From: Pseudacidovorax sp.
GTDB taxonomy: Bacteria > Pseudomonadota > Gammaproteobacteria > Burkholderiales > Burkholderiaceae_C
DNA: 64,000 bases
Direction of reading: 5' to 3'
Assembly (NCBI RefSeq): GCF_017991995.1
Contig: NZ_JAGOPN010000010.1
Span: 1 to 64,000, forward strand
Within the stretch, counting starts at the first letter, position 1, and each line of letters starts with the position of its first letter. Of the stretch, positions 21,847 to 34,559 are shown in pieces. Below the pieces are notes generated by a model. It had not been told where the DNA came from. It ran no database searches and saw only the letters and a list, made by a program, of their open reading frames with translations. The position numbers and the translations under genes are program-made.

Positions 21847-21915
21847 GCAGACGGCAACGCGGGCGATCTGATCGACGAGGGCGACCGTACAATCCTCGCC
21901 CGCCGCTCCAAAGCA

Positions 21916-21940
21916 GAAAGCCCGCACTGGGCGGGCTTTC
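21916..21940 (-). terminator. Hairpin terminator, probably the ancestral tRNA-Asn terminator
   Basis: GAAAGCCCGC and GCGGGCTTTC are perfect ten-base arms around ACTGG. On the minus strand it is followed by TGCTTTGG. It lies 35 bases from the left attachment repeat, where the tRNA-Asn end would have been before the island entered, so it most likely once ended that tRNA. It can also serve chrA, which ends at 21846. Confidence 0.7.
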
Positions 21941-21974
21941 TGAGCAGCTTGGTGACGACCACCAAGTGCTTCGT

Positions 21975-21983
21975 TTGGCTCCC
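21975..21983. repeat. Left attachment repeat (attL) of the tRNA-Asn island
   Basis: TTGGCTCCC here repeats the 3' end of the tRNA-Asn gene at 34483-34491 in the same orientation. The chromosomal-looking terminator lies just to the left, and AT-rich foreign sequence to the right. The match is only nine bases, which is acceptable for a serine recombinase but is not proof alone. Confidence 0.65.
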
Positions 21984-22289
21984 AAGACAGTTGTCACTAC
22001 GAACAGCCCAAATCAGCCTTAAGCTTCCGGCAGCTTTAATACGCCAGCCAAAGTCGCGCATTGACGTCGAAGTATCGCTCCGGCCAAATTGAGCGCTCTG
22101 CAAGCTCCGCTACTGATGACAACCCTTGGCACTCCTTCGCCTCGCATTGGGCCGGGAAAGCTTGCTGTACGCCTGCCGTGCGCCCGCACGCTGTATTCGG
22201 CTGACCTAACCCTGGCCCTTATCACTCTACCGCTTTGTGGCTGAGATTTCTTCTCGGTCCTCGCAAATGCCATTCAATCCAGAGTCTGT
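21984..22289. other. Gene-free left end of the island
   Basis: No convincing reading frame. The segment moves from mid-GC to AT-rich composition and contains several TAA/TGA codons in each frame. With 21847-21983 it makes a 443-base gap after the chromate transporter holding only the terminator hairpin and the attL repeat. Confidence 0.6.
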
Positions 22290-23048
22290 TTACAGACCTT
22301 CGGGCGTTCCATTTGAACTGATAGGATAAGCTCCAGACAATACTTGATGCTCAACATTTCCGTTGACGGTGACACGATTTACAAAGCACTGCTCGCCGTT
22401 TACTTCTCTAAACCTGAGCTCTTGTACCCACTCGCCATTTCTGGCGGTGAAGAAAATGTTGACGTCTTGAGATTGAGGCGTATGCAAGACAACACTAAAC
22501 TGCCCCAAAGCAAATCCGGGCGTCAGATCTCCAACCTTAACATGACGATCTGAATCAGGTAAATGACCGCCAGACTTTAGCAAAGTATTAAAATGATATA
22601 AGTCGGTCACTCGAGCAACAACATTAAAAAGAGGGAACTCGCCGACATGAATTGCAGTAAGATATAGTGTTGCGCCCACTTTCATAACTGAGAAGTAGCA
22701 ATAACTATCTCCTCCTGTGGAGTAGTTAATTAGTTTTTTTGCATGCAACTCTAACTGCTGCACAGAGTCAGCAACTTTTTGTTCTATAGTTTTTAGATTT
22801 TGTTCGACAGACGCTTGCTTTTTCACCCTAAATACCTGCGCTGTTAACCAACTAAAAAAGAAGAACGTTGGCCCAAAAAGTTGTAAAAAGCCAGTCACTG
22901 AAAATTCGGCGTTCCATTTTGAAAAAGTCGTCCAAGCTGCCGCTGCGCCGAACGGAATGTAGAATTCCTTAAAAAGCTGCTTTGCAGTCAAAAACTTCGG
23001 TGAATTCTTAATGCCCTTGAAGAGCACTCTAGTACTATTGACTCTCAT
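22290..23048 (-). CDS. Membrane-anchored protein of unknown function, island cargo
   Basis: Not recognised. A 252-residue protein: two hydrophobic segments at about residues 27-45 and 50-70 (the second is FLQLFGPTFFFFSWLTAQVF), a short coiled coil at 75-100 (VEQNLKTIEQKVADSVQQLE), then a soluble beta-rich domain of 150 residues. The ATG at 23048 follows GGAGG closely, which is better than the TTG at 23081. The DNA is visibly AT-rich; the line 22741-22800 has 22 G+C of 60. It follows the HEPN-motif gene on the same strand after 183 bases, so the two may work together, for instance as sensor and membrane effector. That idea is inference. Confidence 0.65.
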   Translation of the reverse strand: MRVNSTRVLFKGIKNSPKFLTAKQLFKEFYIPFGAAAAWTTFSKWNAEFSVTGFLQLFGPTFFFFSWLTAQVFRVKKQASVEQNLKTIEQKVADSVQQLELHAKKLINYSTGGDSYCYFSVMKVGATLYLTAIHVGEFPLFNVVARVTDLYHFNTLLKSGGHLPDSDRHVKVGDLTPGFALGQFSVVLHTPQSQDVNIFFTARNGEWVQELRFREVNGEQCFVNRVTVNGNVEHQVLSGAYPISSNGTPEGL

Positions 23049-23231
23049 AAATCCCTCCAAGGAAACCGTCTCTACGAACAAAAATCATTCGCCGAAATTC
23101 ACAGTTTAATTAGTACAACCGCCCCTCTCTCTCTTCAAATCAGGGGCCGGTGAAAGGGAACATTGGCCATAAATGCAGACCGACTGGATTCATGCGACGC
23201 TAGAGGAGTGACATGGCCCATTGTTCACCCA

Positions 23232-24530
23232 TCAACTTTCGTCCGCGTCATCGTCAAGATAATCATCAAGCTCTGTTTCCTTTATTTTTTCTAGAATGAT
23301 GCTTGCTGGTAGCTCAGGTCTTCCGCTATCTTTTATTTTCTGCAAAAGTGGCTTAAGGCTAAAGCTGCCGGTTATTTCCGAATTCGCAGCCATACCAATC
23401 AATAATCTTCCAATTTGATTTATATTTAATTCAGGCACCAAGTCGGTAATCACCTTTGCACCAGAATTGGCACTCTCAAAAGATCTCGACCGCAGGTAAA
23501 GGTCAATTGCCTTATCAATAATAGCCGGCGGCGTCACCAAAAATAGGGCACTTTTTATCTCTGTCAATGTTAGTTTTTGCACACGAACTTTAGCGGCGTC
23601 TGCAAGAGGCCGGAAGGTCAGCAGAAAAGATAAATCTTCGATTGCCTCTGCTGGTAATGCTGACACAAATTCATTTAGTCGAATGTTGACATCTTGCTCC
23701 AAGTATGGCCAGCAGTCTGGAATTTCCGCGATGAGATCTACCATACGTTGCAACTCTGTCGCGGCAAGATCCCTGCCCATTTGACTAAGCTTCTCCCTGA
23801 AAACAGCCTCAACCACAGGGAAATGGAGTTTGAAGACGACGCCGAGCGTCCTACGTGCAATAAGCTTCTTCCTATAGTCTACATCTTCCTCTGTTAAACA
23901 CCGCTTTAACAGCGCCGTCGCGAAGTTACGGGTCAATGATTCGCGCGGCTTCCGCAATATTCCAGTAGACAAGAGCGCTTCAATTTTTTCAACGCTGCTG
24001 GGGAAAATTTCCGAATCCACATCGCGTAGTAGCCGCGTCAAAGCATACCTCCCTTGCGCAGGGGGATGTTGAAGTAGATGCGACACCGCCGAATGGATAT
24101 GCGTTCGAGCAAGTTCCGCGGAAGGCGTATACATTTCGTCCTCTCCGACTAAAGAGGGGTGTGCGCAGCGGTTCCGATCCGCGTAAATTCGCTCGAGATC
24201 CACGGATTCGAGTGGCGAAATAAGTTCGAACTTTTCGCGAGCAACTTCCAACAGACTCTTCTCAAACCTTAGCGCGCCAGCCACATCCCCTTGCTGAGTA
24301 ATGCCGCTCAGCAAAGAAATTTGCTGCTCCGCTTCTTTGTCTCCGGCAATCGAAAGCTCGCGAAATTTGTCGATTATGTCAAAGCACACGGCAATCCAAG
24401 TTGCCACAATCGCAGATCGGTATGCACCTGATTTGTAGCTCGCAATCGCTTCAGAGATATAGCTTTTCGCCTTCTCATCTCGGCATTTCAAATAAAGCTC
24501 GTCAAGATCTGAAAGGGCACCGTGTCTCAT
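23232..24530 (-). CDS. HEPN-motif protein of unknown function, island cargo
   Basis: A 432-residue protein not assigned to a named family. The N-terminal 140 residues are helical and contain IYADRNRCAHPSLV; Arg119 and His124 form the Rx4H signature of HEPN RNases. Before it runs the usual HEPN helix pair (YKSGAYRSAIVATWIAVCFDIIDKF). The remaining 300 residues look like helical repeats and end in an acidic DDYLDDDADES tail. HEPN proteins are often toxins or defence nucleases. The ATG at 24530 follows AGGTGG and is preferred over the GTG at 24539. Codon use is AT-rich compared with the island genes to the right, which suggests separate acquisition. Confidence 0.7.
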   Translation of the reverse strand: MRHGALSDLDELYLKCRDEKAKSYISEAIASYKSGAYRSAIVATWIAVCFDIIDKFRELSIAGDKEAEQQISLLSGITQQGDVAGALRFEKSLLEVAREKFELISPLESVDLERIYADRNRCAHPSLVGEDEMYTPSAELARTHIHSAVSHLLQHPPAQGRYALTRLLRDVDSEIFPSSVEKIEALLSTGILRKPRESLTRNFATALLKRCLTEEDVDYRKKLIARRTLGVVFKLHFPVVEAVFREKLSQMGRDLAATELQRMVDLIAEIPDCWPYLEQDVNIRLNEFVSALPAEAIEDLSFLLTFRPLADAAKVRVQKLTLTEIKSALFLVTPPAIIDKAIDLYLRSRSFESANSGAKVITDLVPELNINQIGRLLIGMAANSEITGSFSLKPLLQKIKDSGRPELPASIILEKIKETELDDYLDDDADES

Positions 24531-24711
24531 AGCATCCACCTACCGGACTTCCTGCAGTACTAGCAGCGGTAATGGTAATCATCGGACGTTACTGCCTCTC
24601 TCGACCATCTGGCTCAATCCGCCCGTCGGGCTAGCCAGGATTGCGGTCCTGCATCCAGCCGGCAGCACGCTACCCGTACTGCCGTGGTTAGGCGCTCAGC
24701 GGGAGAAGCGA

Positions 24712-24975
24712 TTAGCTCAGCCGGTCGAGCCCGAATCTGTGGCGCAGCGCCGGCGCGAGCCAATAGGACCAGGCCCCTTTCGCCCAGGCAGCGGTGTACA
24801 GGATCGCCAGCGCGAACATGCCCCACTGGCCTGCGCTCCAGGTGGAGGCGAGGAAGAAGGGCTGGCTGACCAGCCCGAAAAGGCATGCCCACCGCGCCCA
24901 GCTGGGCCGGCGATCCTGCGACAGCCAGGCAGCGGCCGCGCCGCAGGCCAGGATCACGGCCTGATCAGCTCCCAC
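24712..24975 (-). CDS. Small membrane protein, 87 aa
   Basis: A GTG start at 24975 gives VGADQAVILACGAAAAWL, WACLFGLVSQPFFLASTW and WGMFALAILYTAAWAKGAW: three hydrophobic stretches separated by short charged turns, and a basic tail. Proteins of this kind are frequent in phages and integrative elements, with unknown function. The start overlaps the end of the 64-residue gene by 11 bases, so the two are probably cotranscribed leftwards from the LexA-like promoter region. Confidence 0.55.
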   Translation of the reverse strand: MGADQAVILACGAAAAWLSQDRRPSWARWACLFGLVSQPFFLASTWSAGQWGMFALAILYTAAWAKGAWSYWLAPALRHRFGLDRLS

Positions 24976-25159
24976 GAGCCGATTCCACTGGGGCAAGCCA
25001 GCGTGCCGCGGCCGCGGCCGGCGCGAGCTGACGCAGATCCGCGTCGTGCGCCAGTTCGCGCGCAGTCGCCTCCAGTTCGAGGGGATCGACAGAGCGCCAG
25101 TGCTGCTGGAGACGGTGGGCGCAAGCCGCAATCCAGAGTTCGTCGTCGTGGTGTTCCAT
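24965..25159 (-). CDS. Small hypothetical protein, 64 aa
   Basis: Not recognised. MEHHDDELWIAACAHRLQQHWRSVDPLELEATARELAHDADLRQLAPAAAAARWLAP is an acidic, helical protein without a signal or membrane segment. The frame is better than its shadows because it is compact, starts just beside a palindromic promoter region and overlaps the next gene in the same direction. No clear ribosome site is visible. Confidence 0.5.
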   Translation of the reverse strand: MEHHDDELWIAACAHRLQQHWRSVDPLELEATARELAHDADLRQLAPAAAAARWLAPVESARGS

Positions 25160-25177
25160 GAGCGCAGTCTAGCCATT

Positions 25178-25201
25178 AACACTGTATATTTCACCAGTGT
25201 T
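25178..25201. promoter_or_regulatory. LexA-like operator between divergent island genes
   Basis: AACACTG (25178-25184) and CAGTGTT (25195-25201) are perfect seven-base arms ten bases apart, so the core reads CTG-N10-CAG with an AT-rich centre TATATTTCAC. This is the layout of a LexA box, and it overlaps a TATATT -10 candidate. It lies between genes going left (25159) and right (25215). Induction by DNA damage is inference. Confidence 0.55.
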
Positions 25202-25214
25202 TTCGGAGATATTC

Positions 25215-25457
25215 ATGACATGGAACCAAAGCAGCGGCGTGCTCTGCAAGATGCTGGGACCGGAGGTGTCCGATGCGGCGCGGTTGCTGCCGACCCCCGG
25301 CCCTGACCAGCCGAAGACCGCAACGGTCGAGATGGACACAGCCCAAACGGGACGGGTGCGGGTGACGCTGGAATGCCGGCTCTGGAAGCATTACAAGATG
25401 CGCCACTGGGGCTGGCACGCCACCCACGCGGAGCGCATCGATGGCAAGGATCAATGA
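25215..25457 (+). CDS. Small hypothetical protein, 80 aa
   Basis: Not recognised. The ATG follows GGAG by six bases and comes 14 bases after the LexA-like palindrome, so it may be the first gene of a rightward operon reaching to the primase. The protein has a middle strand pair (TATVEMDTAQTGRVRVTLECRLW) and a His/Trp-rich end (HYKMRHWGWHATH). It overlaps the next gene by 17 bases. Confidence 0.55.
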   Translation: MTWNQSSGVLCKMLGPEVSDAARLLPTPGPDQPKTATVEMDTAQTGRVRVTLECRLWKHYKMRHWGWHATHAERIDGKDQ

Positions 25458-25683
25458 GCCCATGGCCGCGAGCGCCCTGGGCCACCCCACCCTATTGCGC
25501 GTGCCGGCCTGGTACAGCGAACGCATCCAGGACGAGATCGTGCTGCCTCTCCCTCCGGAGGAATACGACATCGAGCCCGGCGAGGGCATCAATGGGCGCT
25601 GGGTGGTGACCAGCAGCAGCGGCGCGGTCGTCTACAACGGCATCGGCCCGGTCGAGGTGGTGCGCTCACCCGCGCCGTTCTGA
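25441..25683 (+). CDS. Small hypothetical protein, 80 aa
   Basis: Not recognised. The start lies inside the preceding gene with GGAG about nine bases ahead. The chain is acidic in the middle (LPPEEYDIEPGEG) and ends with beta-strand-like sequence (GRWVVTSSSGAVVYNGIG). It is probably translated together with its neighbours; the methyltransferase gene begins 62 bases later. Confidence 0.5.
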   Translation: MARINEPMAASALGHPTLLRVPAWYSERIQDEIVLPLPPEEYDIEPGEGINGRWVVTSSSGAVVYNGIGPVEVVRSPAPF

Positions 25684-25745
25684 GCCATTCCAGGGCCGAC
25701 CGCCCCCCTTTTTTCGCCTTGCCTCGGTGCTCATGATGGCCGACC

Positions 25746-27026
25746 GTGGCAAAAGACTGGTCATCGCAGCTCAATCAGGTCAACTTCCAGTGTCGGCTGT
25801 GCCGCCACGCGTGGGAGGGACCGCCTGACCTGATCGAAGACGATCCGGAGGCCGAACACCACCCCTACCGGTACTTCGCCGACTGCCCACGGTGCGACTC
25901 GCCGAAACAGCCGCAGGCCGGCTGGGCCCGCGCCCTGCTCAAAGCCCACCAGGCTGCCACCGGGCCGGTGACGCCGAAGGGCAAGGCGGCAACCGCGGCC
26001 AATCTGGCCGGCCACCCCACGCCAGAGGAGACGCTGCGGACCCGCTTCAACGCGATGAAGCACGGCATGGCGGCGCGCACGGCCACCTACTTCCCGGCCA
26101 AGCCTGACCGCTACGCCTTCTGCGAAGGCTGCGAGGTCAATCGGCTGTGGTGCTCGGAGCAGCCGGCCTGCGTGAAGCAGTCCGCCATCTCAGCACCGGC
26201 GCTGCGCTACCACGGCGGCAAATTCCGGCTGGCCTCCTGGATCCTGAGCTTCTTCCCGCCGCACACGTGCTACGTCGAGTCGTTCGGTGGCGCAGCATCG
26301 GTACTCCTGCGCAAGCCCAGGTCGTATGCCGAGGTCTACAACGACCTCGACGATGAGATCTGGAACTTCTTCCATGTGCTGCGTCAGCCAGAGCTGCGCG
26401 CGAGGCTGATCGAGGCATGCCAGCTCACCCCGTACAGCCGCCGCGAGTTTGAAGCCGCTTTCGCAGTCTCCGAAGACCCGGTGGAGCGCGCGCGCCGGAT
26501 GGCCGTCCGCGCCGCCATGGGCTTCGGATCCGCCGGCGCCACGAAGGGAAGCACGGGCTTTCGCATCGATTGCCGCCGAAGGCACGGCACTGCGCAGCAT
26601 GTGTGGGTGAACTATCCCGAGACGCTGGCGCCCATAGGCGAGCGGTTGACTGGGGTGATGCTCGAGAACCGTCCGGCGCTGGATGTGATCCTGCAGCATG
26701 ACGCGCCGACGACGCTCCATTTCGTCGATCCGCCCTATCTCCCGCACACCCGAAAGGTGGGTCGCGCATATCGCCACGAAATGACGGCTGAACAGCATCT
26801 GGAGCTGCTCACCACCCTCAAAGGGCTGCAGGGGATGGTGGTGCTCTGCGGATATCCCAGCACGCTGTACGCCGAGCAGCTGGATGGCTGGTCCCAGTTT
26901 GGCACTCAGGCGCGTGCATCCGGCGGCAGGGGCACAGTGCTTCGGCAGGAATCGGTGTGGGTCAACCCCGCATGTGCCGCGGCGCTGGCGCAGCACCCCG
27001 GCGGACTGTTCGCGGAGGCCGCATGA
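25746..27026 (+). CDS. D12-class DNA adenine N6-methyltransferase fused to an N-terminal Cys-rich domain
   Basis: A 426-residue protein. Residues 150-400 are a Dam-like methyltransferase: RYHGGKFRLASWILSFFPPH is the SAM-binding motif (154 onwards) and DPPY stands at 328. The first 140 residues form a different module with two Cys pairs (CRLCRHAW and CPRC, a zinc-ribbon pattern), an HGMAARTATYFPAKPDRY segment known from phage proteins of unknown role, and further cysteines (CEGC, CSEQPAC). The GTG start has no strong ribosome site. No restriction enzyme is beside it, so it may protect the element or mark its DNA. Confidence 0.82.
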   Translation: MAKDWSSQLNQVNFQCRLCRHAWEGPPDLIEDDPEAEHHPYRYFADCPRCDSPKQPQAGWARALLKAHQAATGPVTPKGKAATAANLAGHPTPEETLRTRFNAMKHGMAARTATYFPAKPDRYAFCEGCEVNRLWCSEQPACVKQSAISAPALRYHGGKFRLASWILSFFPPHTCYVESFGGAASVLLRKPRSYAEVYNDLDDEIWNFFHVLRQPELRARLIEACQLTPYSRREFEAAFAVSEDPVERARRMAVRAAMGFGSAGATKGSTGFRIDCRRRHGTAQHVWVNYPETLAPIGERLTGVMLENRPALDVILQHDAPTTLHFVDPPYLPHTRKVGRAYRHEMTAEQHLELLTTLKGLQGMVVLCGYPSTLYAEQLDGWSQFGTQARASGGRGTVLRQESVWVNPACAAALAQHPGGLFAEAA

Positions 27027-27367
27027 AGGCGCCTTTTCATCGTTGCGCGGCCACAGGCTGCAGCAGGCAGGTTCCTTCCCACCTGCTCATGTGCATCGAT
27101 CACTGGCGCCTGGTGCCGGCGCCGCTCCGCCGCGAGGTGGTGTCGGCCTGGACCTGGAGGCAGCGATCGGCCCAGGCACCCGGCGGTGCCTCCGTCGACG
27201 CGGTGCGCGCCCACCAGGCGGCCGTCGAGAAGGCCGTGGCAGCTGTGGCCACGAAGCAAACCAACAAACAAGCCCGGCGGGCAGCGGTGGAGGGAGACCT
27301 GTTCGCCGCCACGCCGGACACTTCACAGCGAGAAGATGGCATTCAACACAACCAGCGGCCGGCCTGA
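27023..27367 (+). CDS. Small Cys/His-containing phage-type protein, 114 aa
   Basis: The start overlaps the methyltransferase stop (ATGA). HRCAATGCSRQVPSHLLMCIDHWRLVPAPLRREVVSAW is a compact Cys/His module of the kind seen in short proteins next to phage replication genes; it could hold zinc. The rest is a helical, Lys/Ala-rich stretch (AAVEKAVAAVATKQTNKQARRAAVEGDLF). It overlaps the primase gene by 32 bases. Function unknown. Confidence 0.6.
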   Translation: MKAPFHRCAATGCSRQVPSHLLMCIDHWRLVPAPLRREVVSAWTWRQRSAQAPGGASVDAVRAHQAAVEKAVAAVATKQTNKQARRAAVEGDLFAATPDTSQREDGIQHNQRPA

Positions 27368-30161
27368 CACGGCCGCGGAGATCAACGCGAAGGTCGACTG
27401 TGAGGACTTGGCCGAGCGCCTCGGCCTGGAGCGGCCGACCGGCAAGGGCAATTTCCGAAGCCCGCACCACCCCGACAAGGAGCCCTCGGTTTCCGTGTTC
27501 CGGGCTCGATCTGGCGTGAACGCCGGCGCTTCCCGCTTCAAGGATCACTCGACCGGGGAGACCGGCGGCCCGATCGACATGCTGATGTGGGCCCGCGGCA
27601 TCGACTTCGTCGACGCGGTCAAGGAGCTGGCGGACATGTACGGGATCCGCGTGCACAGGCCGGCGCACCCCGGCGCCGCGGCCGCGCCGCCAGCGCCGCG
27701 CACCCTGGCCGAGACCATCGCGGACGCCTGCATCCGGGACGCCGGGCCCGGCCGCGACGACCTGGTGGCGTACCTGGAGGGGCGGTGCATCAGCCGTGAA
27801 GTGATCGATCACGCCATCAAGCGGCGGACCCTCGGCTGGAACACCTGGCGCAGCCCCAAAGTTCCGGAGGGTGAACGCGGGCATGGCGGGCCCGCCATGG
27901 CCACCATCGTCCGCTCACCGATGAACGACCAGGTGATGGCGGTGGACATGCGCTACACCGACCCTGAGAAGAACGGCGGCCAGAAGACGGGCAGCCAGGG
28001 CGAGAAGGCGGGCTATCCGTGGTGCAGCGACTGGCGCCGCCTGCAGGCGGCTCACAAGGTGTTCGTGGTGGAGAGCGCGATCAACGCCATGACCATCGAG
28101 ACGTGCGGCATCCCGGGTTCGGCCGCGCTGGCGGTCCGCGGCACGGGCACGGTCGAGTCCATCGACTGGACCATCCTGCGCGGCAAGCAGGTGATCGCGG
28201 TGTTCGACAACGACCGGCCACAGGAGCATGGGCCCGCAGCCGGCTACTGCCCAGGCTTGAAGGCCGCGTGGCGACTGCACGAGTTGCTGACGGCGCTGGA
28301 CATCAGCTGCCTCCTGGTCGACCAGTCCGACTGGTGGGAAGACGAGGAGAACCAGGAGGGGCTGATCAACGACATCAACGACTTCGTGAAGGAACGCGGC
28401 GTTGACGCGACGAAGAAGGCGCTGGCCAAGCTGGAGAGCTGGCTGATCCCCGGCATGGCCGGCGACGACAAGCGGCTGGGCAAGCCGCGGCTGTTCCTGC
28501 CGAGCCACGACTACATGGCGTATTGGCGCTACCGGGTGCAGCCCGACTTCACCAAGTTCGTGGCCAAGGTCGACAAGGACAGCGACGGCAACGAGAAGCT
28601 GGAGTACCAGGACGTGTGTGGCTTCCGAGTCGCGGCCGTGAGCCGGGTGCAGATCGCCTCGCCCACGTCGACGATGACGGGCGACGTGGACCACAGCCCG
28701 CGGACCATCTTCGCCCTCAGCGTTCAGGTGCCACGCCACGGCGCCCGCCTGCAGCGCCGCGTGGTGGACGACGAGAAGCTGCACAACATCGACGTCTGGA
28801 AGAAGCTCGGGCCGGTGTTCGCGCCCACGCCGTTCGCCCGCATGCTGAACGTGCTGGAGCGGGCCGCTGACATCGGGGCCCGGGACGCGGTCAACTTCGT
28901 CGGCCTGGCCTGGCGGGACGGCAAGCTGGTGGTGAACGAGGGGCCGGACTGCTTCTTCGCCGACCCCCGGCAGCAGTGCCCGTACCACGAGCTGATCTTT
29001 CCCTCGGGCACCATGGCCGATGCTCGCGAGGTGGCCGCCCAGTTCCAGGCCACGTTCCGCGACAACGCGGCCATGATCCCGTTGGTCTGGGCGCTGGGCG
29101 CCCATCTCAAGGCTTTCCTCGGCTTCTGGCCGCACTTCGAGATGCAGGCCGAGAAGGGCACGGGCAAAACCACCCTGGTGAAGCGCCTGGAACGAGCCCT
29201 GGCCATGATGACCAGCAGCCGCCAGAGCCTGCAGACCGAGTTCCGGCAGCTGACGTCGCTGAGCTACACCAGCCACCCCGTGGGCTGGGGCGAGATGTCG
29301 ACCAACAAGCAGGACGTGATCAACAAGGCGATCAGCAACCTGCAGGAGTGCTACCAGTACGAGCACACGCGCCGCGGCGCCGAGCTGATCGACTTCCTCC
29401 TGTGCGCACCCGTGCTGCTGTCGGGCGAGGATGTGCCCGTGTCCAGCCTGGTCGGCAAGATCGTGCGCTCCGAGCTGACCAAGGCCAAACGCGGCCCGCT
29501 GATCCCCGAGGACCTGCCCGTCTTCCCGGTCAAGCAGTGGCTGCAGTTCCTGGCCAGCAAGAGGAAAGACCAGGTGCTCGAGCTGCAGCGCTCGTGCGTG
29601 GCGGATCTGTTCGGCCGCTGCATCGCCAGCACGTCGGACTCGGGCGCCGAGCGGATGGTGGCCAACTACGCCGGCGTGGCCACGGCCTGGGAGCTGCTGT
29701 GCGAGTTCCTCGATCAGCCGCGGGAGACCGGCGACTTCCTGACCAGCCTGACGGCCGAGATGAACGCCCACATCCGCGAGAGCGCTGCCGAACGCCAGCC
29801 CTGGGCCTGGATCATGGAGAAGCTGCTCAGCGAGATCGCCAGTGGCGCGTTCCGCTACCCGTATGCCTTCAGCGAAGAGGACGAGGTGCCCGTGCTATGC
29901 GTGCGTACGGGCTTCGTCATGGCCCACATGAGCCAGACGCCGGCGCTGCGCGAGTTCTGGGACGGCCTGCCGGTCAAGAGCGATCGCGTGTTTAAGAAGC
30001 AGCTGGCCGCGGCGGGCGTGCTGGCCACGGAGCGGGCTGTGGAACGGACGATCGGCCACACGCGTGTCGGCCACATGGTGGCGCTCAGCCTGCCGGCGCT
30101 GGAGCAGTTCGGGCTGCATGCCGTTCAGCCGAAGCGGGTCGATGCCGGCGCGCATGCTTGA
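27336..30161 (+). CDS. Primase/ATPase replication protein with CHC2-like and Toprim domains
   Basis: A 941-residue protein expected to prime and unwind the element's DNA. Residues 20-110 resemble the DnaG CHC2 region (FRSPHHPDKEPSVSVF), although most zinc-binding cysteines are missing. The Toprim domain covers about 230-330, with Glu in VFVVESAINAM and the DxD of IAVFDNDRP. A P-loop AEKGTGKTTLVKRL lies near residue 605. The gene lies just upstream of an iteron cluster, as in satellites that replicate with their own alpha-like protein. The ATG at 27336 is chosen over upstream codons that lie in the previous gene. Confidence 0.78.
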   Translation: MAFNTTSGRPDTAAEINAKVDCEDLAERLGLERPTGKGNFRSPHHPDKEPSVSVFRARSGVNAGASRFKDHSTGETGGPIDMLMWARGIDFVDAVKELADMYGIRVHRPAHPGAAAAPPAPRTLAETIADACIRDAGPGRDDLVAYLEGRCISREVIDHAIKRRTLGWNTWRSPKVPEGERGHGGPAMATIVRSPMNDQVMAVDMRYTDPEKNGGQKTGSQGEKAGYPWCSDWRRLQAAHKVFVVESAINAMTIETCGIPGSAALAVRGTGTVESIDWTILRGKQVIAVFDNDRPQEHGPAAGYCPGLKAAWRLHELLTALDISCLLVDQSDWWEDEENQEGLINDINDFVKERGVDATKKALAKLESWLIPGMAGDDKRLGKPRLFLPSHDYMAYWRYRVQPDFTKFVAKVDKDSDGNEKLEYQDVCGFRVAAVSRVQIASPTSTMTGDVDHSPRTIFALSVQVPRHGARLQRRVVDDEKLHNIDVWKKLGPVFAPTPFARMLNVLERAADIGARDAVNFVGLAWRDGKLVVNEGPDCFFADPRQQCPYHELIFPSGTMADAREVAAQFQATFRDNAAMIPLVWALGAHLKAFLGFWPHFEMQAEKGTGKTTLVKRLERALAMMTSSRQSLQTEFRQLTSLSYTSHPVGWGEMSTNKQDVINKAISNLQECYQYEHTRRGAELIDFLLCAPVLLSGEDVPVSSLVGKIVRSELTKAKRGPLIPEDLPVFPVKQWLQFLASKRKDQVLELQRSCVADLFGRCIASTSDSGAERMVANYAGVATAWELLCEFLDQPRETGDFLTSLTAEMNAHIRESAAERQPWAWIMEKLLSEIASGAFRYPYAFSEEDEVPVLCVRTGFVMAHMSQTPALREFWDGLPVKSDRVFKKQLAAAGVLATERAVERTIGHTRVGHMVALSLPALEQFGLHAVQPKRVDAGAHA

Positions 30162-31169: not shown

Positions 31170-32195
31170 ATGAATGGCAACTGGACCCAAACAACCGCAA
31201 TTGATGCGTGGATGGAATACATCCAGGCGAACAAGGGCCGCAGCCCTCGCACCGCAGAGGCATATGGCATGGCCCTGCACAAGCTGAGCGAGTTCCTCGG
31301 GCGCGACGTCCTCGATGCCACCGCTGAGGAACTGGAGGCGTTCACCGGCCTCTGGCTGCACAAGCGCGGCGTGGTGGCCCTGAGTCGCAAGCCCTACATC
31401 TCCGCGGTGAAGGGCTTCTTTGCCTGGGCGGCCTGGCGCGGGATCATTGACGGCAATCCGGCGGGCGACCTGGTGCACCCCAAGACCGGCTTGGTCCTGC
31501 CGGAGACCATCAGCCTGGCCAACGCCGAGCGCCTGGCCTGCGCTCCGGACCTGGCCACGTTCACCGGCATCCGGGACTCGGCCATCCTCCACGTGCTGCT
31601 GGGCTGCGGGCTGCGTGTGTCCGGCCTGGTGGGCCTCAACGAAGGCGACCTGCTGGAGATCGAGGTCGACGGCCGCCGGCGCCTGGCGGTGCGCACATTC
31701 GAGAAGGGCAGCCGGGAGCGCCGCGTGCCCATGCCCAAGGAGGCCGAGGCCATCGTGCGGGTGTACCTGGGCCACGAAGAGCTGCTCGAGATCGACCGCG
31801 ACGTGGTCGACCGCCGAGGCCATGCGGACAAGGTGCTGTTCGTCAGCACGCGGAACTCCACGGTCAGCGAAGACCGATATCGGGGCGAGGAGCGCCGGCT
31901 CTCCCGACAGTCGGTGCACGACATCATCCAGAAGCACGGCAAGGCAGTCGGCATTCCGGAGCGTGAGCTGCACCCGCATGCGCTGCGCCACATCTACGGC
32001 ACCGAGCTGACCGAGGACGAGATCCCGACGCTTGGCGTCCAGGACCTCATGGGGCACTCGGATCCGAAGAGCACGGCGGTCTACACCGCGCTGAGCATGC
32101 GCAAGAAGACCAGGTGGGTGGACAAGGCTTCCCCCCTGGCCAAGGTTCGCACGCCGGTGAGCGAGCTGCTCAAGCGCCTGCCCGATCAGGGCTGA
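31170..32195 (+). CDS. Tyrosine recombinase (XerD/phage-integrase family)
   Basis: A 341-residue recombinase. The N-terminal SAM-like arm is present (AIDAWMEYIQANKGRSPRTAEAY) and the catalytic residues are Arg149 in GCGLRVSGL, His270-Arg273 in HPHALRH, His296 in MGHSDPKST and nucleophile Tyr305. It starts directly after the iteron region. With a serine recombinase at the island's end, this enzyme may resolve multimers of the excised form rather than integrate it; integration cannot be excluded. Confidence 0.88.
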   Translation: MNGNWTQTTAIDAWMEYIQANKGRSPRTAEAYGMALHKLSEFLGRDVLDATAEELEAFTGLWLHKRGVVALSRKPYISAVKGFFAWAAWRGIIDGNPAGDLVHPKTGLVLPETISLANAERLACAPDLATFTGIRDSAILHVLLGCGLRVSGLVGLNEGDLLEIEVDGRRRLAVRTFEKGSRERRVPMPKEAEAIVRVYLGHEELLEIDRDVVDRRGHADKVLFVSTRNSTVSEDRYRGEERRLSRQSVHDIIQKHGKAVGIPERELHPHALRHIYGTELTEDEIPTLGVQDLMGHSDPKSTAVYTALSMRKKTRWVDKASPLAKVRTPVSELLKRLPDQG

Positions 32196-32447
32196 CCCCC
32201 TCCCCGTTATTTCTGCCGGTTTTTTAGGACGGCCTCCACATGCCCATCCGCACAACACGTATACACAAACCTAGGTGCCGCAAGCGGCTACAGCCCGAAC
32301 ACGCCTGCGGCAGTGCGATCTCGCACGTCCGCCAAACCTGTAACAGGAACGGGCTAAATCAGCCTGCCCCCCTGGGTTCGCCACTGTGGAAAAAGGCAAA
32401 AGGCGCAGTGGCTCGCAGGTGCTCCCCAGGGGCAGAGGGGCGCTGCC

Positions 32448-32957
32448 ATGCCTGAACCTCGCAGTGGCGCACGTGCACGCGCACGGCCTGGCACGGGCGG
32501 GGGTGGTCAGGCGCAGGGGGTGGGGGGTCGGCAAGGCGACCTCTTCGCCCCCGAAGGGGGGGGTGGGTACCTGGATGAATGCAATCCCGTAGAACTTCCC
32601 CAGGGGGCCGTCGAGGACACGAAATTTCGCGAGCTGGAGGAGATGGGCTTGCCCGCCGTTTGGCTGGAAGGAGCCCGTCTGATCGGCTACGAAAATTTCG
32701 TGCGCCTGTGGAAGCACCTCGACGGCGCCGCCGCGGGCGGCTCGCTGCCGCTCTCCGACAACGAATCCATGATCGAGGTCCGCCTGCGCCGTTTCGCCAG
32801 CTTCCAGCGCTTCCAGCGGAACCGGTTCATCGAGAGCTTGGCCGCGATGGGCCTCGGCGGCAGCGAGATACACGCCGCTGTCAAGGCCCAGCTGGGTGAA
32901 AACCTCACGCGGAATCACATCTTGCGGCTTGCCCGTCGTGGCAGGATGGCCCGATGA
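32448..32957 (+). CDS. Hypothetical protein upstream of the recombinase, possible HTH regulator
   Basis: A 169-residue protein with a Gly/Arg-rich first 40 residues and a helical second half (FVRLWKHLDG, RRFASFQRFQRNRFIESLAAMG, GSEIHAAVKAQLGENLTRNHILRLARRGR). The last part could be a helix-turn-helix. GAGGGG precedes the ATG. Its stop overlaps the recombinase start (ATGA), so it is cotranslated and may act as its regulator or directionality factor. The 252 bases before it contain no clear gene. Confidence 0.55.
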   Translation: MPEPRSGARARARPGTGGGGQAQGVGGRQGDLFAPEGGGGYLDECNPVELPQGAVEDTKFRELEEMGLPAVWLEGARLIGYENFVRLWKHLDGAAAGGSLPLSDNESMIEVRLRRFASFQRFQRNRFIESLAAMGLGGSEIHAAVKAQLGENLTRNHILRLARRGRMAR

Positions 32958-34525
32958 AGACGGCCGTGATCTATGCCCGCGTCAGCACCCAGCGGCAGGC
33001 CGATGAGGGGGTGTCGCTCGACGCGCAGGTCGAGCAGTGCCGTGGCCGCGCCGAGCAGCTCGGCGCCGAGGTGCTGAAGGTCTTCAGGGACGAAGGTGTC
33101 AGCGGTCGCTCGACAAAGGGACGCCACGGCTTCCAGGCGGCCGTCGACTTCTGCGGCCAGGCCGGCGTCCACTTCTTCATCACGTGGGCCACCTCGCGCG
33201 TGGCCAGGAACGCCGTGGACCTCATCATGGCGCAGGAAACCCTGCGAGATGGCGGCACGCGGCTGGAGTGCCTCAACGCTGACGTCAACGACGACACGGA
33301 TGCCGGCTTCATCAATCGCACCTTCATGGCAGCGATGGACGAGCTCCACTCGCGCAACATCAGCCGCGACACCCTGCGATCCCAGAAGCGTGTGGCGGCC
33401 GAGGGCTTCTTTACCGGCGGGCGCGTGCCCTACGGCTACGCCGTGGTGGACGAGGGCAAGCGGCGCCGCATGGTGCCGGATCTGGAGGCCGCTGCCATCG
33501 TCCGGCGCGCCTTCGACCTCTGCCTACAGGAAGGCCTAGGCGCCCAGGCCATCGCCCACGCGCTCAACGATGCCGGACTGCTCCGCGCCGGCGCCCGGTG
33601 GGGGAAGAACAGCGTCCAGTACCTGCTCAATAACCGCGTCTACACGGGCGTGAAGACCTACAACCGCAAGCACAGCCGGACCGGCCGCGCGAAGCCGCTG
33701 GACGAATGGGTGTCCGTCGACGCCCACGAGCCGCTGATCAGCAAGGAAGCATTCGAAAGGGCTCAGACCATGATCAAGGACCGAACGCCCCACGAAGGCG
33801 GTGGCACGCCGCGCAGCGAGTTCGTTTTCGCGGGCAAGCTCACCTGCGGCATCTGCAGCAGCTTGCTGCAGATCACGAACGGCACATCCCGCAGCGGGGC
33901 CCTGTACAGCTACTACAGCTGCGTGGCGCACAAGCACGGGCGGCCTCAGTGCCTCTTTCGGCCGATCCGCGCCGACCTCATGGACGAATGGCTTACCCAG
34001 ACGATCCTGGAGCGCGTGCTGACGCCTGAGGTGGTCTCCAAAGCCCTGGACGACGTGGCGGCAATGACGGAAACCTGGCTGCGGGACAGAGAGGCAGCGC
34101 GCGGCCGCCTGGTGCGCGATCTGCGCGCCGTCGAGGGAAAGCGGGACGGGCTGCTGGACTTCGTGGCAGAACACGGGAGGGCCACGCCGGCGGATGTCAT
34201 CGGCAAGCTGAACGAAGCACGCGCCCAAATCGATGAGCTGCAGGCCGAGCTGGACCGCCTGGAGCGCGCCAAGGTGCCGCGGCGCAATCGGCACATCGAC
34301 CCCGAAGTGGCCATCGAGGTGATGCACGAAACGATAATGGCGGCCGATGCCAAAAAAAAACGCGCCTTTATGGGCGCGTTCTTAGACCAGATCACGGTCT
34401 CCAACTCGGAAGTCGAAGTCGCTTATCGGGCGGATGCCTTGCTGCAAACGGGTCCGGTGAAGGATGTTCACAGTGGCCTTGATTGGCTCCCCGACCTGGG
34501 CTCGAACCAGGGACCTACGGATTAA
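32954..34525 (+). CDS. Large serine recombinase (site-specific integrase)
   Basis: A 523-residue enzyme likely to integrate and excise the island. The catalytic domain starts AVIYARVSTQRQADEGVSLDAQ with Ser11. The recombinase domain (GGRVPYGYAVVDEGKRRRMVPD and NSVQYLLNNRVYTGV) and the zinc ribbon (CGICSSLL with CVAHKHGRPQC) follow, then a coiled coil at about 395-440. The stop codon lies within the tRNA-Asn gene, so the last 14 codons (PDLGSNQGPTD region) are antisense tRNA sequence. The C-terminus will differ after excision. Confidence 0.92.
   Translation: MKTAVIYARVSTQRQADEGVSLDAQVEQCRGRAEQLGAEVLKVFRDEGVSGRSTKGRHGFQAAVDFCGQAGVHFFITWATSRVARNAVDLIMAQETLRDGGTRLECLNADVNDDTDAGFINRTFMAAMDELHSRNISRDTLRSQKRVAAEGFFTGGRVPYGYAVVDEGKRRRMVPDLEAAAIVRRAFDLCLQEGLGAQAIAHALNDAGLLRAGARWGKNSVQYLLNNRVYTGVKTYNRKHSRTGRAKPLDEWVSVDAHEPLISKEAFERAQTMIKDRTPHEGGGTPRSEFVFAGKLTCGICSSLLQITNGTSRSGALYSYYSCVAHKHGRPQCLFRPIRADLMDEWLTQTILERVLTPEVVSKALDDVAAMTETWLRDREAARGRLVRDLRAVEGKRDGLLDFVAEHGRATPADVIGKLNEARAQIDELQAELDRLERAKVPRRNRHIDPEVAIEVMHETIMAADAKKKRAFMGAFLDQITVSNSEVEVAYRADALLQTGPVKDVHSGLDWLPDLGSNQGPTD
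34352..34380 (-). terminator. Minus-strand intrinsic terminator inside the recombinase gene
   Basis: On the minus strand AACGCGCC (34380-34373) pairs with GGCGCGTT (34366-34359) and seven further Ts follow. It lies 104 bases after the tRNA-Asn 3' end and would end that transcript. It overlaps codons of the recombinase near its C-terminus, so one stretch serves as both protein code and antisense terminator. Confidence 0.75.
34483..34491. repeat. Right attachment repeat (attR) in the tRNA-Asn 3' end
   Basis: TTGGCTCCC, which includes the complement of the tRNA's GGGAGCCA end. It matches 21975-21983 in direct orientation. Confidence 0.65.
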
Positions 34526-34559
34526 CAGTCCGGCGCTCTACCGACTGAGCTATCGGGGA
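34484..34559 (-). tRNA. tRNA-Asn (GTT)
   Basis: A 76-base tRNA with encoded CCA. On the minus strand it starts TCCCCGATAGCTC, carries anticodon GTT at 34526-34524 in the loop CTGTTAATC, has the TTCGA T-loop and ends GGTCGGGGAGCCA. The acceptor arms pair fully. A TATACT -10 box lies at 34577-34572. The island occupies the DNA beyond its 3' end, and the gene is intact after integration. Confidence 0.97.

Follow-up and report, generated by a model that had tools for sequence, protein, structure and literature searches.

A predicted divergent member of the PD-T7-3/Dandelion anti-phage family in an exchangeable cargo slot of a tRNA-Asn-integrated phage element of Pseudacidovorax

The window, a 64,000-nucleotide stretch of a Pseudacidovorax sp. 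contig (NZ_JAGOPN010000010.1), contains on the minus strand at 23232..24530 the gene of a 432-aa protein, P0001, which is assigned below to the PD-T7-3/Dandelion family of HEPN proteins. The open frame begins with an ATG at 24530 and runs over 432 codons, while an alternative start, a GTG at 24539, would give a protein of 435 aa. A first-pass annotation made from the sequence alone had placed a gene at 23232-24530; the open frame is found there, but the strand has to be corrected to minus, as the plus-strand frame over the same interval was rejected for its many stops. P0001 can be divided into an N-terminal HEPN-like part of about residues 1-160, which contains Arg119 and His124, and a C-terminal part of about residues 161-432. 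The codons of the R-N-R-C-A-H motif (residues 119-124) lie at 24159..24176 on the minus strand when coordinates are derived from ATG 24530, and the positions originally given for the Arg/His pair are right in this numbering. The AT-rich location that had been described is also confirmed, with a GC content of 47.3% in the gene versus 69-71% in the flanking chromosome (71.1% and 69.4% on the two sides), 47.9% in the cargo slot that surrounds the gene (22006-24730) and 66.7% in the remaining mobile element. A scan of 22000-24800 gave a single promoter-like site, inside the HEPN gene, against a chance expectation of 2.4; terminator-like sites are likewise at chance level (3 versus 3.3 expected). 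An RNA partner of the gene was rejected, as there is no Rfam match in 21900-25300 at E-values up to 0.1.

The AT-rich cargo slot (22006..24730) adjoins the left end of a mobile element that is integrated at a tRNA gene. The 9-bp core TTGGCTCCC is present both at attL (21975..21983) and at attR (34483..34491), the latter at the 3' end of a tRNA-Asn gene (34484-34559, minus strand), and in the same-genus genome G009 both flanks are continuous, which gives the element a length of 12,508 bp. The two cores, the tRNA and the empty site substantiate the tRNA island with a left attachment site beside the gene that the first reading had proposed. Apart from the HEPN gene, the slot holds a minus-strand ORF of up to 263 aa and no known family at 22290..23081, downstream of the HEPN gene. 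The plus strand carries an ORF for a D12-class adenine methyltransferase (25746..27026), a phage-type DNA primase (phrog_5629; 27186..30161), a tyrosine recombinase (31170..32195) and a serine recombinase (integrase; 32954..34525), so that recombinases of both types are encoded within 31170-34525. The frame of the serine recombinase extends beyond the crossover core into the tRNA-Asn gene and stops there; its last codons are therefore host DNA, and the C-terminus of the protein would change on excision.

Another genome of the genus (G011) has a prophage of about 48 kb at the same site. Common to both elements are 24731-26190 of the window (97.9%) and the sequence from 27020 to beyond the tRNA-Asn (96.6%), and the two serine recombinases are 99% identical. 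Where the window has 829 bp (26190-27020), a stretch that is spanned by the D12 methyltransferase ORF, G011 has about 38 kb (C4:229427-267384). Of eight ORFs chosen from these 38 kb, six match head/portal/protease, tape-measure or tail-fibre families, one is weakly spanin-like and one is without match. The earlier description of a satellite-like element is right as to the mobile element, but the ends are common to a 48-kb prophage, so that the element may be a shortened prophage, or a satellite with the ends of that prophage.

The G011 counterpart of the slot 22006-24730 has a length of about 1.04 kb and gives no blastn match to it. As G011 holds other DNA in this place, the HEPN gene lies in an exchangeable slot adjoining attL, and a tRNA-integrated phage element is seen to swap cargo beside its attachment site. 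The slot of G011 (L047 5929-6968) contains a minus-strand ORF starting MCNRY, which resembles an SRAP/YedK-type protein. In a third genome (G001; L046 14422-14470), the left flank continues into only 49 bp that match the 3' end of the tRNA-Asn gene; there the similarity breaks off, which would fit the use of this tRNA by a different element. Phages and their satellites are described in part of PMC9122126 as carriers of hotspots of antiviral systems, and a passage of PMC9519451 places 12 of the 21 systems from the study that found PD-T7-3 in intact prophages. PD-T7-3 itself is absent from defence islands according to a passage of PMC10799925.

The family of P0001 was identified by profile searches and by a search of the Protein Data Bank. 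The PADLOC model of PD-T7-3 matches P0001 with an E-value of 6.3e-33 over residues 9-387 of 432 (profile positions 6-396 of 432), and it matches all 14 members of a wider alignment (A1) that includes P0001 and in which five members had been recruited with this same model. Searched with the single sequence of P0001, the Protein Data Bank yields two credible matches only: Dandelion at 4.3e-17 (9wxf, an entry with 12 chains) and Dandelion-hepn at 1.5e-15 (9wx2). In the alignment, RNRCAH stands opposite RHLSAH. Profile A3, built from P0001 with four relatives and free of the three strong PD-T7-3 matches, finds Dandelion with 2.1e-28 over profile positions 7-288. The profile of A1 already contains Dandelion and is therefore no independent test of C-terminal homology, for which the A3 match stops at position 288.

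PD-T7-3 and Dandelion can be joined through a prophage gene. The Dandelion chain 9wxf is the product of ORF1 in the Z region of the P2-EC30 prophage (AJ512676), to which 455 of 455 aligned residues are identical, and this ORF1 scores 558 bits against the PD-T7-3 model, which makes PD-T7-3, Dandelion and P2-EC30 ORF1 one family. The identity of P0001 to P2-EC30 ORF1 is 28% over residues 1-160 and 14% over residues 161-432. Compared with the three strong matches, which together with the model stand here for PD-T7-3 in place of the original E. coli sequence, identity is 15-19% overall and 9-14% in the C-terminal part. At such values the trigger, and even the target, may differ from those of PD-T7-3. 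In some relatives, the PD-T7-3 model covers the N-terminal part only (4-170 in L040, 6-159 in L033).

Pfam HEPN families do not match P0001 at E-values up to 1, in searches where the HMMER filters drop most weak matches, and the HEPN-type family DUF4145 is weakly matched by two of 14 homologues (best 0.023). Many HEPN families are missed by sequence models, and a curated Pfam match does not define the fold. The comparison of P0001 with NCBIfam gave one sub-threshold match (0.066) and nothing credible, and that with PHROGs gave none. A confident match of the N-terminus to a non-HEPN family was thus found neither in Pfam nor in NCBIfam nor in the Protein Data Bank, and the HEPN reading that the first-pass annotation had given for P0001 is supported by homology to the solved Dandelion-hepn domain (9wx2), with Arg and His aligned. 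The match to the PD-T7-3 model also sustains the candidate defence gene, though not the undescribed system that was implied: P0001 is predicted to be a divergent member of a known single-gene anti-phage family, PD-T7-3/Dandelion.

The Arg/His motif by itself is without weight. Of 5000 shuffled copies of P0001, 40% contain one or more Rx4H (mean 0.48 per copy) and 78% one or more Rx4-6H, and the motif was rejected as stand-alone evidence on account of this chance level. Across homologues, R119, A123 and H124 are present without exception (90 of 90 full-length sequences), so that the Rx4-6H feature of the HEPN superfamily is found throughout and no aligned homologue lacks the pair; P125 is kept in 89. 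One of the recruitment patterns included the motif, which biases the sampling, but Arg and His are also kept in all 17 of the 76 newly recruited rows that lack this pattern, and their conservation therefore goes beyond chance. R38, D51, K55 and E90 are invariant to the same degree. The count of 90 is silent about the rows that were dropped, namely L144 (no ORF match) and eight with ORFs of <330 aa from the 85 A3 loci, together with those left out of the 23 earlier loci L023-L045, of which 13 rows were used: L023-L026 (no ORF match to P0001), L027, L036 and L045 (short), and L032, L035 and L039 (split or interrupted).

Matches to P0001 were found in 51 plasmid records, ten of which align to 80% or more of the query, and in two of 50,697 phage records, and a scan of genome contigs with P0001 alone as query gave no relative. 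Scans with A3 gave 73 loci in genome contigs and 12 in viral contigs. In genome sets that are samples of larger groups, the PADLOC model finds matches in 6 of 369 genomes of the class and 7 of 399 of the family, and P0001 as query in 6 of 399 of the order; these counts include the genome of the window itself, and several of the matches are weak or partial. The PD-T7-3/Dandelion-type family is rare in the sampled genomes.

In a tree that is rooted at the midpoint only, and in which the placement of several long rows is unsure, P0001 falls among 69 rows, and the three strong PD-T7-3 matches are grouped apart from these on a long branch of their own. Records named as Pseudomonadota, Acidobacteriota, Chloroflexota, Cyanobacteriota, Bacteroidota and Myxococcota are found among the 69 rows, a number of them being metagenome bins. 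The nearest relative of P0001 is found in Variovorax paradoxus (55% by tblastn), and the next nearest in Geothrix (Acidobacteriota), a Rhodocyclaceae bin and Ramlibacter, an order that suggests horizontal spread of the branch. At loci of >9 kb, 59 of 70 homologues are AT-richer than their surroundings by >3 points; AT-rich cargo is therefore a habit of the family and not peculiar to the window. A defence family found by experiment in E. coli is in this way extended into a large multi-phylum branch, of which, wide as it is, no study was found in literature searches.

The two parts of the protein differ in their speed of change. Median identity to P0001 among 89 homologues is 49% over residues 1-160 versus 21% over residues 161-432, and dN is higher in the C-terminal part in 12 of 12 pairs, with ratios from 1.13 to 5.13. 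Eleven of these pairs were formed from closer homologues without a common member and the twelfth from P0001 and its Variovorax relative; synonymous sites are saturated in ten of the 12, and for this reason no dN/dS is claimed. We take this to suggest a conserved effector joined to a quickly changing sensing part, but a C-terminal part that is less constrained would equally show faster change, so that speed alone is no proof of sensing. What is new is a large branch, extending over several phyla, with a conserved HEPN part and a C-terminal part that changes 1.1-5 times faster. A bolder reading, which we consider possible though rather doubtful, is that the P0001 branch forms a separate, phylum-spanning part of the superfamily in which one conserved HEPN effector is combined with a variable C-terminal sensor, that each branch would respond to phage triggers of its own, and that phages and islands have spread the resulting repertoire of single-protein immune receptors. 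As a structure of Dandelion exists, the branch lends itself to testing whether a conserved HEPN cutter takes its direction from a variable sensor in the same protein.

P0001 can be compared with several known systems. PD-T7-3 (Vassallo et al. 2022; PADLOC PDLC04108) is like P0001 in its profile match over most of the length, its similar length, its single gene and its HEPN domain with Arg and His; it is unlike P0001 in standing on a separate long branch, at the 15-19% identity of the three strong matches. PD-T7-3 protects E. coli against T-even phages more strongly than against T7 (PMC9519451), and part of a review lists it under HEPN (PMC10952713). Dandelion (PDB 9wxf, 9wx2, 9wwz) resembles P0001 in the sequence of its HEPN part and in a two-part architecture, the HEPN and C-terminal chains having been solved separately, and differs in having RHLSAH instead of RNRCAH and a C-terminal part too divergent to align well with that of P0001. 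No paper on Dandelion was found in literature searches in which not every paper listed for the word was opened; the main text of PMC13337447 is without the word. BxaP of Akkermansia, compared by description, comes close to P0001 through an N-terminal DUF4145/HEPN region and a structural likeness to PD-T7-3, and passages of PMC10799925 describe in addition a weak C-terminal HEAT-like match, a likely action by abortive infection and the loss of protection through P121A in the N-terminus. Unlike P0001 with its tRNA-integrated phage element, BxaP is associated with BREX/RM according to the same passages. In P0001, P125, which might be the counterpart of BxaP P121, directly follows His124. Tha of Staphylococcus, also compared by description, is like P0001 an HEPN anti-phage system of a prophage, and unlike it is activated by phage tail proteins, as part of PMC11087260 states.

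It is probable, in our view, that P0001 acts as a divergent PD-T7-3/Dandelion member whose C-terminal part holds the HEPN part inactive until a phage is sensed, upon which RNA is cut and the infected cell is stopped. The active site of HEPN proteins is divided between two subunits. P0001 would form a homo-oligomer in which the C-terminal part keeps the N-terminal HEPN domains inactive. During infection, the C-terminal part would sense something that the phage makes or does and release the HEPN domains, whose paired active sites (Arg119 and His124) would then cut RNA, probably that of the host, and the cell would be halted before phage progeny mature. The copy in the window would be an active one. 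RNase activity, defence and the trigger of P0001 are what we infer from sequence.

Some HEPN proteins have no RNase activity, and for the clade of P0001 the cutting of RNA is deduced from sequence. P0001 might therefore have the HEPN fold and not, or no longer, cut RNA, binding RNA or a phage protein instead. The constancy of the Arg/His pair and of A123 in 90 of 90 homologues is what would be expected of a catalytic site and makes this alternative unlikely. Another thought is that the gene is decaying cargo, intact in its frame but unexpressed or non-functional within a shortened prophage. Such decay would agree with the absence from the element of the structural region present in its G011 relative, with the position of the single promoter-like site inside the HEPN gene, and with interrupted copies elsewhere, which are found in G840 (L035 and L039; in-frame stop, two pieces) and in G610 (L032; split over two ORFs). 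With a frame that is open over 432 codons and all invariant residues kept, we consider decay of the copy in the window quite improbable.

The HEPN gene and its neighbour had at first been treated as a pair, but the neighbour is not conserved. The downstream ORF at 22290-23081 has no tblastn relative in 72,556 plasmid records and none in the other 199 of the 200 family genomes searched, and at the homologue loci it was found only in a copy of the window itself, for which reasons it was rejected as a conserved partner. The 25 largest clusters of neighbouring ORFs give no common partner either: all but one occur solely in a group of five prophage loci that are related to each other, namely L072 (a Xanthomonas) and L134-L137 (viral contigs), and the remaining one, present at four loci, is presumably a tyrosine recombinase. 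A two-gene system of the toxin-antitoxin or effector-regulator kind, in which the downstream ORF controls the HEPN protein, is very unlikely given this distribution, even though the ORF lies on the same strand, 150 bp downstream and in the same AT-rich slot. In these searches the HEPN gene has no conserved partner, and it looks like a single-gene system; PD-T7-3 is described as a single-protein system in a passage of PMC10799925.

Defence genes may be more frequent close to members of the family. Neighbours were compared at 46 of 89 homologue loci, taken with 6.5 kb on both sides and kept when <85% identical to one already kept. The nearest flanking ORFs (A4, n=92) match 266 PADLOC models at 1e-10, while the ORFs lying farthest from the homologue at these loci (A5, n=92) match 34. 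Among the first 25 models listed, type I restriction leads in A4, with MTase_I in three members and Specificity_I in two, and each of those listed for A5 is found in one member. As length decided which ORFs were taken, many Specificity_I models can be matched by a single type I locus, the totals count models and not the members matched, and only the first 25 models were listed, the contrast between A4 and A5 is no more than a hint at defence genes near family members. Pfam Phage_integrase is matched by five of the 92 nearest ORFs. On a conjugative Cupriavidus plasmid (L041 1-7311), a homologue stands directly after a Wadjet-type operon.
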